Below are positions 1-4,369 of a DNA stretch of 64,000 bases, piece by piece. The stretch is from Exiguobacterium sibiricum 7-3. GTDB lineage: Bacteria; Bacillota; Bacilli; Exiguobacteriales; Exiguobacteriaceae. Where the stretch lies: contig NZ_KK211190.1 in the NCBI RefSeq assembly GCF_000620865.1, positions 1,129,971-1,193,970 of the forward strand. The letters are read 5' to 3'. The first letter of the stretch is position 1; each line of letters starts with the position of its first letter. The notes below the pieces were generated by a model. That model worked only from the letters and a program-made list of their open reading frames with translations. It searched no databases and had not been told where the DNA came from. The position numbers and the translations under genes are program-made.

Positions 1-1635
1 CCATATGAACATCTTGTCCAGGATATCTTCGTTCCGTCGACGTTGACGACGCATCAGCAGGATGCCGTCGATGCGATTACGGAACCGGATGAAACCAATA
101 CGTTTTTACTCCATGGGGTGACCGGAAGCGGGAAAACGGAAGTGTATCTGGAGTCGATTCATACCATGCTTGAACGAGGGCGTCAGGCCATTCTGCTCGT
201 ACCGGAGATCAGTTTGACACCGATGATGGTCAAACGTTTTAAACGACGGTTCGGTGACCGTGTCGCCGTACTTCACAGTGGGTTGTCGTTAGGTGAAAAA
301 TACGATGAATGGCGAAAGATTTCGCATGGAGAAGTGGACGTCGTTGTCGGGGCACGTTCTGCGATTTTTGCACCGTTGACGAACATCGGTGTCATCATTT
401 TAGACGAAGAACATGAAACGACCTATAAACAAGAAGAAAATCCGCGGTATCATACCCGGGATGTGGCAACATGGCGAGCGGCATACCATAAATGTCCCGT
501 CGTCCTTGGAAGTGCGACGCCGATTCTAGAGACGTATGCACGTTCTCAGAAAGGAGTCTATCGTTACCTCCCTCTAAAGGAACGTTTCGGAGGCGAACTT
601 CCACCGGTCGAGATCATCGATATGCGAAAAGAACTGGAACGCGGCAATCGAACACCGTTCAGCCTGCCGCTCGTCGAAGGAATCAAACAGCGCATCGAGC
701 GTGGCGAACAGACGGTCTTGCTCCTCAATCGACGGGGATACACGACATTCGTGCTGTGTCGGGATTGCGGAGAAACGCTTCAATGTCCACATTGTGCCGT
801 CAATCTGACCTATCATCAACACCAAGATTGTCTGAAGTGTCATTATTGTGGATTTGAAGCCGCGATGCCGAAAACCTGTCCGTCCTGTGAATCGAAAAAA
901 ATTCGGCAGTTCGGTACAGGAACACAAAAAATCGAAGAAGAACTGGCACATTTAATTCCGGAAGCCAAAATCATTCGAATGGATCAAGACACGACGTCAC
1001 GCAAAGGAGCGCATGAAAAATTATTGAATGCGTTTGAGCGTGGCGAAGGAAACATCTTGCTCGGGACACAAATGATCGCCAAAGGGCTTGATTTTCCAAA
1101 CGTGACACTGGTTGGTGTCATTGCGGCGGATGCAACACTCGGAATTCCCGATTTTCGAGCGAGTGAACGAACGTTTCAGTTGATTACACAGGTTTCAGGT
1201 CGGGCCGGTCGGGGAGCACTTGCCGGACAATCGATCATCCAGACGTATAATCCGGATCATTACGTCATCCAAACGGCAAAACGACACGACTATGAAGCAT
1301 TCTATAAGCGGGAAATGCAATTGCGCAAGTTAGGCGGTCACCCGCCCTTCTGGTTTTTAGGATTGGTCACGATTTCAGCGGACCATCCGCTCGAAGCCCA
1401 AGCAGAAGCAGAAGCGATTGCCGGAGAACTCCGGCATTTGGAATCAGACGACTTGATTGTCAACGGTCCGCTCGAAGCCCCGCTCGCACGATTGAAAAAC
1501 ATGTATCGCCAGCAGGTGATTTTAAAACATAAAGGTCAAGAAGAGGTACGGGAGGCACTCCGGGCGATGCTTGCGTTACGCATCAAACAAAAAGTCCAAG
1601 TAACAGTGGATTTAAATCCATTTGTATTCATGTGA
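1..1635 (+). CDS. priA: Primosomal protein N' (PriA helicase), 5'-truncated by window edge
   Basis: PriA is the 3'-to-5' superfamily 2 helicase that reloads the replisome at stalled forks. The reading frame is open from base 1, so the start lies upstream; 544 residues are visible of a family usually near 800. Seen in order: Walker A (GVTGSGKTE) near residue 26, the DEEH helicase box (LDEEHETTYKQEE), then the zinc-binding block of paired cysteines (CRDCG, CPHC, CLKCHYCG, CPSC) near residues 250-300, and helicase motifs V/VI (GTQMIAKGLDFP, QVSGRAGR). The in-frame TTG at position 43 is not the true start because homology continues upstream. The stop sits 11 bases before the def-fmt start, which fits an operon. 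Intact as far as seen. Confidence 0.97.
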   Translation, partial: PYEHLVQDIFVPSTLTTHQQDAVDAITEPDETNTFLLHGVTGSGKTEVYLESIHTMLERGRQAILLVPEISLTPMMVKRFKRRFGDRVAVLHSGLSLGEKYDEWRKISHGEVDVVVGARSAIFAPLTNIGVIILDEEHETTYKQEENPRYHTRDVATWRAAYHKCPVVLGSATPILETYARSQKGVYRYLPLKERFGGELPPVEIIDMRKELERGNRTPFSLPLVEGIKQRIERGEQTVLLLNRRGYTTFVLCRDCGETLQCPHCAVNLTYHQHQDCLKCHYCGFEAAMPKTCPSCESKKIRQFGTGTQKIEEELAHLIPEAKIIRMDQDTTSRKGAHEKLLNAFERGEGNILLGTQMIAKGLDFPNVTLVGVIAADATLGIPDFRASERTFQLITQVSGRAGRGALAGQSIIQTYNPDHYVIQTAKRHDYEAFYKREMQLRKLGGHPPFWFLGLVTISADHPLEAQAEAEAIAGELRHLESDDLIVNGPLEAPLARLKNMYRQQVILKHKGQEEVREALRAMLALRIKQKVQVTVDLNPFVFM

Positions 1636-1646
1636 GGTGGCAAACT

Positions 1647-3032
1647 ATGTATAAAGTTGTAGAAGTACCAAATGAAGTGTTGCGTCAAAAATGCCAACGG
1701 GTAACGAAGTTTGATAAGAAATTAGGAAAAATGATTGATCGTATGTTCGACACGATGTATGAATATGACGGCGTCGGACTAGCAGCTCCGCAAATCAATC
1801 AGCCGATTCGTGTCGCCGTCGTCCATACGGATGATGAGACGGGACCCATCGAGCTGATTAATCCAGAAATCATCGAAGCATCCGGTTCAGAAGTCGATGA
1901 CGAAGGGTGTTTGAGCATGCCGGGGATTTTCGGACCGGTCGAACGGTTCGAGCAAATCGTCGTCAAATCACAAGACCGTCTTGGACGAAGTGTCAAAATT
2001 AAGGCGAACGGTTTTTTTGCACGGGCGATTCAGCACGAAATGGATCATCTGGATGGTGTATTGTTTACGGATAAATTAGTCGAAACAGAAGCATCACCTC
2101 GCGTCGTCTTCATGGGGACGCCGGACTTTGCCGCAAATACGCTCCGTGAAGTGATTGATGCCGGCTATGATGTCGTCGGTGTCGTCTCCCAGCCGGATAA
2201 ACCCGTCGGACGAAAACGTGAAATCAAACCAACACCGGTGAAGGAAGTTGCGCTGGCTCACGACATCCCCGTCTTACAACCCGTTAAAATTCGGGAGGAT
2301 TATCAAGAATTGCTCGACTTGAAACCGGACTTGATCATTACGGCCGCTTACGGACAAATCGTTCCGACAGCCGTGCTCGAAGCACCTCGATATGGTGCAA
2401 TCAATGTTCATGCTTCCTTATTGCCGAAGTATCGCGGCGGCGCTCCGATTCATCAAGCCATCATCGATGGTGAAACGGAAACGGGAGTCACGATCATGTA
2501 TATGGTGGACCGATTGGATGCAGGTGACATGTTATCAAAAATCATCGTGCCGATTGAAGAACGTGATACGGTCGGAACGATGTTCGACAAACTCAGTGCT
2601 GCCGGTGCCCGATTATTAATCGAAACATTACCGCAGTTGATTGCGGGAACGTTGACACCGGAAGCGCAACGGGAAGAGGACGTCACGTTTTCTCCGAATA
2701 TCAGCCGGGAACGGGAACGACTTGATTTTTCACGTCCCGGAGAAGCGTTATACAATCAAATTCGCGGAATGAATCCGTTCCCGAGTGCCTATACGATGCT
2801 TGGTTCAGACCGTCTGAAAGTCTACTTTGCTGAAAAAGTCCCGGGTCACGGAACGGCGGGCGAAATCATTGCCCTCGAAGCCGACGGACCGGTCATCGCA
2901 ACCGGATCAGATGTCGCACTGAAATTAGTAGATGTACAACCGGCGGGTAAAAAACGGATGGATGGTGCCACATTTATGCGTGGTGTCGGACAGACATTGA
3001 CGATTGGACAGAAAGTAGGCGAACAAGCATGA
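1647..3032 (+). CDS. def-fmt: Fused peptide deformylase / methionyl-tRNA formyltransferase
   Basis: One 461-residue ORF joins two enzymes that normally have separate genes. Residues 1 to about 148 are peptide deformylase, which removes formyl from nascent chains. Its three motifs are present: GVGLAAPQ, E86-GCLS with metal ligand Cys88, and Q129-HEMDH with His130/His134 and catalytic Glu131. Residues from about 152 are methionyl-tRNA formyltransferase, which formylates initiator Met-tRNA: VVFMGTPDF, SQPDKPVGR, INVHASLLPKYRGG with Asn253/His255, and DAGDM. The deformylase tail after LDGVLF is replaced by a short ETEASP linker. No ATG or GTG lies at the usual Fmt start, so separate initiation is unlikely. 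The ATG at 1647 follows GAGGTGG at 1634-1640; an in-frame GTG at 1632 has no such site. The 3' end overlaps rsmB by ATGA. Fusion is seen; the effect is unknown. Confidence 0.95.
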   Translation: MYKVVEVPNEVLRQKCQRVTKFDKKLGKMIDRMFDTMYEYDGVGLAAPQINQPIRVAVVHTDDETGPIELINPEIIEASGSEVDDEGCLSMPGIFGPVERFEQIVVKSQDRLGRSVKIKANGFFARAIQHEMDHLDGVLFTDKLVETEASPRVVFMGTPDFAANTLREVIDAGYDVVGVVSQPDKPVGRKREIKPTPVKEVALAHDIPVLQPVKIREDYQELLDLKPDLIITAAYGQIVPTAVLEAPRYGAINVHASLLPKYRGGAPIHQAIIDGETETGVTIMYMVDRLDAGDMLSKIIVPIEERDTVGTMFDKLSAAGARLLIETLPQLIAGTLTPEAQREEDVTFSPNISRERERLDFSRPGEALYNQIRGMNPFPSAYTMLGSDRLKVYFAEKVPGHGTAGEIIALEADGPVIATGSDVALKLVDVQPAGKKRMDGATFMRGVGQTLTIGQKVGEQA

Positions 3033-4369
3033 ACGTCAGAGATGCAGCAGTAACAACTTTATTAAAAATTGGTCAAGGTGGGGCGTTCTCCACGATTTCC
3101 GTCCACCAGATGCTTGAAAAACGTGCCATCTCAAAAGCGGATGTCGGCTTATATACGGAACTGGTGTACGGAACGCTTAGCCGTGAATTGACACTCGACT
3201 ATATTTTAGAACCGTTCTTAATGAAACAAAAGAAGCTGGACCCATTCATGCGTCCGTTATTACGGATGAGTGTCTATCAACTGTTTTATCTCGACCGGAT
3301 TCCGGATCACGCCGTCATCAACGAGGCAGTCGAGATTGCCAAGACACGCGGTAAACCGCATATCGCGAAAGTCGTCAACGGTGTGCTGCGTAACGTCCTT
3401 CGACAAGGAAAACCTGATTTCTCAGCGATTCCTTCAGTGATCGACCGGATCAGTATAGAAACAAGCCATCCGACATGGCTCGTCGAACGGTGGATCGAAT
3501 TGTTCGGAGAAGAAGAAACGTGGCAGATGTGCCGACTGAACAATGAACCGGCCCCTGTTACCGTCCGTGTCAACCGGACCCGGACAGACAGACAAGAAGC
3601 GATTGAATTACTGGAAGCACAGGGTGTCAGTGCGAAACCAGCCCACGCGGCACCAGACGGGCTCGAAATCATCAGTGGCAGTGTGCAACAGACGGATCTG
3701 TTGGAACGCGGTTACTTGTCGCTCCAGGACGAAAGTTCGATGCTGGTTGCTGCCGCGTTAGGCGCACAACCGACGGATCTTGTCTTGGACAGCTGTGCGG
3801 CTCCGGGTGGGAAAGCGATGCATATCGCCGAAGGTTTAGCGGCCGGTTCGTTGTTGGCGCTGGATCTCCATCCTCATAAAGTGAAATTGTTAGAAAAACA
3901 GGCAGTTCGTCTTGGACTGGAAAATGTTCAGGCGGAGGCACTGGATGCCCGCCAAGCAGGAACACGTTTTGAGGCGGCATCGTTTGATCGGGTGTTGGTC
4001 GACGCACCGTGTTCAGGACTCGGTGTCATTCGCCGGAAACCCGATATCAAGTGGACGAAACGTCCGGAAGATTTAACGCAGTTGCCGGTCATTCAGCGGC
4101 AGATTCTCGAAGCGGTTCTTCCACTGGTCAAACCGGACGGAACCTTCGTCTATTCGACCTGTACGATGGATCCGCTCGAAAATGAGCAGCAAACGGACTA
4201 CATCCTCAGCCAAGGATTTGTTTTTGACGAGACGTTCAAAGCGCGGATGCCGGAAGCCGTTCAATCGTTGATTGGTGAACGGGCTGAATTAAAATTACTC
4301 CCGACATCGCTTGGTACAGATGGTTTTTATATCGCTGCATTCAAAAAAATGAATGAAACAACGGGATAA
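3029..4369 (+). CDS. rsmB: 16S rRNA (cytosine-5)-methyltransferase RsmB
   Basis: RsmB (Sun/Fmu family) methylates C967 of 16S rRNA using SAM. The 446-residue protein has an N-terminal NusB-like RNA-binding half (about residues 1-140). The C-terminal Rossmann methyltransferase shows the SAM motif DSCAAPGGK, motif IV VDAPCSGLG and the catalytic STCTMDPLENE segment; the two cysteines in PCS and STC are the family's paired catalytic residues. Start ATG overlaps the def-fmt stop by four bases, so translation is probably coupled. In Bacillus rlmN follows here, but here prpC comes next after only 24 bases. Confidence 0.96.
   Translation: MNVRDAAVTTLLKIGQGGAFSTISVHQMLEKRAISKADVGLYTELVYGTLSRELTLDYILEPFLMKQKKLDPFMRPLLRMSVYQLFYLDRIPDHAVINEAVEIAKTRGKPHIAKVVNGVLRNVLRQGKPDFSAIPSVIDRISIETSHPTWLVERWIELFGEEETWQMCRLNNEPAPVTVRVNRTRTDRQEAIELLEAQGVSAKPAHAAPDGLEIISGSVQQTDLLERGYLSLQDESSMLVAAALGAQPTDLVLDSCAAPGGKAMHIAEGLAAGSLLALDLHPHKVKLLEKQAVRLGLENVQAEALDARQAGTRFEAASFDRVLVDAPCSGLGVIRRKPDIKWTKRPEDLTQLPVIQRQILEAVLPLVKPDGTFVYSTCTMDPLENEQQTDYILSQGFVFDETFKARMPEAVQSLIGERAELKLLPTSLGTDGFYIAAFKKMNETTG

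Follow-up and report, generated by a model that had tools for sequence, protein, structure and literature searches.

A peptide deformylase–methionyl-tRNA formyltransferase fusion gene of Exiguobacteriaceae, and an apparently new lineage of such fusions in the Thermaerobacter class

The fusion gene and its setting

In the window, i.e. the whole stretch of 64 000 nucleotides that was analysed, a single reading frame of 461 codons runs from an ATG to the stop codon at 3030-3032 without internal stops, and joins a peptide deformylase (PDF, encoded by def) to a methionyl-tRNA formyltransferase (Fmt, encoded by fmt; Table 1). Its neighbours, named partly by family knowledge, we take to be priA upstream, presumably an ordinary operon neighbour, and rsmB downstream. 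The start of rsmB shares four nucleotides (ATGA) with the stop of the fusion. At the Shine-Dalgarno (SD) position, GAGGTG is kept in 30/30 family copies, and a promoter and terminator scan of the region returned no more sites than were found in shuffles.

Table 1. Positions of the fusion gene, its parts and neighbours in the window, and of related genes elsewhere
Feature	Position	Strand	Remarks
def-fmt fusion gene, 461 aa	1647..3032	+	~51 kDa by length; unbroken in 38/38 family genomes
Peptide deformylase core, residues 1-143, metal-site motifs I-III	1647..2075	+	PF01327; Foldseek 1ws0
Linker LVETEASP (residues 144-151) in place of the PDF tail, stop, spacer and Fmt start	2076..2099	+	Varies between species
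Methionyl-tRNA formyltransferase, residues 152-461, N- and C-terminal domains	2100..3029	+	PF00551, PF02911; Foldseek 4iqf
SD-like GAGGTGG, 6 nt upstream of ATG 1647; shares bases with the priA stop codon	1634..1640	+	Sequence
priA, upstream gene, primosomal helicase	43..1635	+	3′ part of the ORF, as listed; sequence motifs and family knowledge
rsmB, downstream gene, 16S rRNA m5C methyltransferase	3029..4369	+	Sequence and family knowledge
Stand-alone second PDF of the host, 185 aa	G000:C7:1047426-1047923	-	Motifs GIGLAAPQ, EGCLS and QHEYDHLDG intact
Thermaerobacter-class fusion, example	L136:2747-4402	+
Thermaerobacter-class fusion, example	L131:1899-3398	-
Thermaerobacter-class fusion, example	L134

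Both halves were assigned by profile searches. Pfam placed Pep_deformylase (PF01327) at residues 1-148 (E 5e-50; 169.5 bits against a cut-off of 22.8), Formyl_trans_N (PF00551) at 152-328 (E 6e-41) and Formyl_trans_C (PF02911) at 351-446 (E 1e-21), and the scores exceeded the equivalog cut-offs of the NCBIfam models TIGR00079 (pept_deformyl; 163.7 bits, curated cut-off 103.95) and TIGR00460 (fmt; 324 bits, cut-off 201.5). The deformylase motifs, defined as GxGxAAxQ (I), EGCxS (II) and QHExDHLxG (III), are present as GVGLAAPQ (42-49), EGCLS (86-90) and QHEMDHL (129-135, or to 137 with the glycine of motif III). The catalytic Asn/His/Asp region of Fmt, described by the patterns NxHxSLLPxYRG and DxGD, is found as NVHASLLPKYRGGAP (253-267) and DAGD (291-294). 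Across 30 family copies these motifs vary only at L45, M132 and Y262; N253, H255 and D291-D294 of the Fmt domain are invariant in all 30. The initial annotation had described one frame leading from deformylase into formyltransferase, with all three metal-site motifs and the key Fmt motifs in place, and is borne out by the unbroken frame, the scores of both profile families and the intact motifs in both halves.

Among solved structures, those nearest in sequence are Bacillus anthracis Fmt (4iqf, E 2e-116) and Bacillus cereus PDF (1ws0, E 3e-47). An AlphaFold2 model of the fusion built on a 61-row alignment reached a mean pLDDT of 95.5 and superseded a poor one (pLDDT 68) based on nine close sequences; Foldseek matched it to 4iqf with a TM score of 0.96 and to 1ws0 with 0.94 (both by target; rmsd 0.6 for 1ws0). 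The model core is weakest at the linker block, and at a pTM of 0.71 the placement of the PDF domain relative to the Fmt domain is not settled by the model.

A def-fmt fusion was reported in 2025 in Exiguobacterium, from four reference genomes (PMC12690207, Mol Biol Evol), and the core finding is therefore already known. In that paper, an E. coli def-fmt mutant carrying the E. alkaliphilum fusion grew again at a level comparable to wild type, a complementation which shows that the gene supplies both activities; a stand-alone second PDF of Exiguobacterium is described there as well. This orthologue supports the dual activity that had been claimed for the window gene, and the experiment is of a kind that the initial annotation had called for. 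The published case is that of this very gene in this genus, with def fused to fmt and a stand-alone PDF besides; the present analysis differs from it in covering all 38 sampled family genomes, in analysing selection and the junction, and in the second, independent lineage described below.

We consider the gene very probably to encode a conventional bifunctional enzyme, predicted to be one polypeptide and born by in-frame loss of a gene boundary. Such an enzyme would have two independent active sites, the N-terminal metal-dependent PDF domain taking formyl groups off nascent chains and the C-terminal Fmt domain formylating initiator Met-tRNA.

Conservation and junction in Exiguobacteriaceae

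Every one of the 38 sampled Exiguobacteriaceae genomes, complete assemblies among them, contains a full-length, stop-free match to the fusion. The family comprises two genera, and every close named record is Exiguobacterium; named Exiguobacterium loci from the GTDB set were fused in 25 of 25 cases, and def and fmt were not fused at Fictibacillus, Planococcus, Lederbergia and other loci. In a survey of 399 Bacilli genomes, no other unbroken full-length match occurred among the ∼150 matches listed, strongest first; each of those from outside the family has at least one stop. The comparison of def-fmt junctions in related genomes that the initial annotation had recommended thus finds the family fused and the other Bacilli listed separate. 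In the latter the two genes are adjacent, as had been stated, with a stop codon and an Fmt start between them.

The fused proteins of the family measure 458-466 aa, and their linker varies in sequence and differs in length by whole codons. Chance is excluded, since the junction is open in all 38 genomes despite this variation. That an assembly or sequencing error deleted the stop codon is ruled out for all practical purposes by the recurrence of the fusion in 38 separate family assemblies, including complete ones, and in the independent published genomes (PMC12690207). The same 38 open genomes counter the refutation once envisaged, in which resequencing would restore a stop and a start at 2060-2115. 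The overall dN/dS was ∼0.03 (PDF domain, 0.026-0.031; Fmt domain, 0.031-0.036), and both fused domains are under strong purifying selection.

In 62 outgroup pairs, separate PDFs continue for 17-35 residues after DHLxG before a stop and a nearby Fmt start, and 81-186 nt lie between the glycine of DHLxG and the methionine of Fmt MGTP; in fused copies, 15-22 codons are left at the junction. Because def and fmt are already in the same frame in 21 of these pairs, the loss of a few dozen bases in frame would suffice to fuse them. The proposals that the deformylase lost its C-terminal tail, and that the fusion arose by loss of the def/fmt boundary, are supported by the shortened tail and by the disappearance of both the stop and the Fmt start. 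We infer that, in the ancestor of the Exiguobacteriaceae, the tail and stop of def and the start of fmt would have been lost in frame, probably within a tight priA-def-fmt-rsmB operon.

An ATG (M156), and in some species a GTG, lies near the boundary, and the linker is short as well as variable. The frame might thus be translated as one while Fmt is also, or mainly, made separately through internal initiation or linker proteolysis, which would make the fusion nominal. However, the window copy has no start codon at the Fmt boundary, as had been noted from the outset: the closest in-frame codons that could serve are a TTG lying within the PDF core (codon 139) and the ATG of the MGTPDF motif of Fmt, and a start at the latter (M156) would remove the first Fmt strand (E152-157 in the model). 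Likewise, in 23 of 30 fused family copies the 12 codons that precede the MGTP methionine contain no in-frame ATG, GTG or TTG, and an SD-like internal start was found in none of the 30. These counts make internal initiation of Fmt unlikely, and no conserved candidate for such a start emerged from the 30 copies; separate production of Fmt by either route seems to us highly improbable.

Fusions in the Thermaerobacter class and independent origins

Outside Exiguobacteriaceae, unbroken def-fmt matches were found in a survey of 249 genomes of the phylum Bacillota. Def and fmt share one frame in Thermaerobacter marianensis (genome G452), in its genus and in many relatives of the class. We read the one-frame arrangement directly in 53 genomes of the Thermaerobacter class (L131-L136 and 47 loci of L155-L210), and ∼15 further genomes of the class look fused as well; as these loci were picked mainly for likeness to the fused query, the proportion fused is not an estimate of frequency.

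All three Pfam domains were detected in each of three Thermaerobacter-class fusions checked. When the five set motif patterns were applied to 57 fused sequences (the 53 and four from Exiguobacterium), 42 matched all of them, and the other 15 miss one pattern each, mostly the strict D-x-G-D. A common linker of the class reads DRA..V-x-(L/I)-P-P-E-x-x-L-R-V-V-F-M-G-T, with 23 residues from DHLxG to the Fmt MGT in many families. Several linkers (L201-L203, L207-L210) are longer, at ∼40-80 residues over the same interval, and rich in Glu, Ala, Gly and Pro, which suggests flexible tethers and not a fixed interface. The idea of GTG starts with SD sites in the linkers of this class was abandoned, SD-like sites being present in only 6 of 53.

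Searches with PF01327 returned no PDF other than the fused one in 43 of the 53 genomes (6/6 and 37/47); several of the 43 are incomplete assemblies, and the T. marianensis genome is complete. If the searches were complete, the fused form must deformylate in vivo in these organisms.

At four loci of the class (L131, L132, L133 and L136), a membrane zinc-metallopeptidase-like gene with an FDPLYW-like start and an HEVGHA motif lies downstream of def-fmt. In L133 and L136 it sits between the fusion and rsmB, at the place where Exiguobacterium has rsmB.

PDF, Fmt and joined trees (INDEPENDENCE) all group Exiguobacterium with 15 unfused Bacilli (support 0.98-1.0), and in all three the Thermaerobacter class stands apart from Exiguobacterium. 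The joined tree places Exiguobacterium inside the unfused Bacilli, and the single-domain trees place it with Bacilli. An AU test rejected a single clade of all fused sequences (P = 0.00144; lnL difference 125). The Exiguobacterium fusion arose independently of the Thermaerobacter-class fusions, and the trees and the AU test do not support the view that one group acquired a ready-made fusion horizontally from the other. In the tree of the Thermaerobacter class, fused forms are intermingled with separate ones and several changes are required; given weak branches, a single origin in the class with later splits is possible.

The two sets of fusions have the same two domains in the same order and in one frame, but differ in their independent origin, in that the Thermaerobacter-class form is usually the sole PDF of its genome, and in its linker, which often contains P-P-E. 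PMC12690207 mentions no other lineage with a def-fmt fusion, and the Thermaerobacter-class fusions are absent from its account; this second, independent and deeper lineage, widespread in the class, appears to be new.

Consequences and persistence of the fusion

Fmt acts on the charged initiator tRNA before initiation, and PDF on the nascent chain at the exit tunnel. As initiation and elongation separate the two reactions, direct hand-off of a substrate between PDF and Fmt is implausible; opposite chemistry at different stages of protein synthesis means that hand-off cannot explain the fusion. The imbalance that is lethal to the cell is formylation without deformylation. Locked 1:1 production is the likeliest consequence of the fusion, and such fixed synthesis is sure provided that the polypeptide is not processed. 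Its main effect would be a supply of opposing activities in which the capacity to formylate always comes together with deformylase. In E. coli, the C-terminal tail of PDF aids ribosome binding; with this region replaced by Fmt, any ribosome contact of the fused protein must differ from that of E. coli PDF.

Why the fusion persists is a separate matter. The motif-complete second PDF of the host (185 aa) is presumably of the longer type, as are B. subtilis YkrB and S. aureus PDF, and a second PDF-like match, in a frame of ∼185-239 codons, is listed for other family genomes. As the host retains a stand-alone enzyme, deformylation in Exiguobacterium need not rest entirely on the fused domain, which could be accessory there. 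The boundary may then have been deleted and the fusion fixed without benefit, tolerated by virtue of the stand-alone PDF, an account that is compatible with a bifunctional protein and that we treat as a real possibility, if somewhat less than probable. A freely varying linker fits it, and fixation of a harmless deletion by drift is likewise compatible with the data. Yet the fused PDF is constrained like Fmt, as the dN/dS ranges given above indicate, and most genomes with the independent Thermaerobacter-class fusions have no other PDF.

We tentatively propose that def-fmt fusion is a repeated, selected architecture with at least two origins in Bacillota. In the Thermaerobacter class it would be old, extending over some 25 family-level groups, and usually the sole PDF, so that the whole N-formyl cycle would reside on one polypeptide; its stoichiometry, or a role of PDF in bringing Fmt to the ribosome (or of Fmt in bringing PDF), might then matter for function. 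As a natural experiment, the fusion allows a clean test of how doses are balanced in the formylation cycle and of the sites at which Fmt and PDF act with respect to the ribosome. The main reservation about the published Exiguobacterium case, namely its back-up deformylase, is removed by the Thermaerobacter-class lineage. The fusion also bears on the action of PDF inhibitors: reduced susceptibility often stems from loss of fmt, as PMC12690207 relates, and in organisms with the fusion a single gene encodes both Fmt and the target deformylase.

Compared with the separate def and fmt of other Bacilli, the fusion keeps the gene order and homologous domains (46-62% identity), but is devoid of the PDF C-terminal tail, stop codon and Fmt start found there. 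ArnA is also bifunctional and contains an Fmt-like formyltransferase domain; however, its partner is a UDP-glucuronic acid oxidase of the same lipid A modification pathway, and a deformylase is absent from it.

Matches to the full query from Lachnospiraceae and Clostridia (L084, L086, L113, L125, L127 and L129) turned out to be separate genes that are tightly packed or overlap. In a Clostridia MAG (L129:397-945 and 806-1882) the stop-to-stop frames of def and fmt overlap in different frames; at several Lachnospiraceae loci they are packed within ∼10 nt, which may represent an intermediate stage on a route to fusion.
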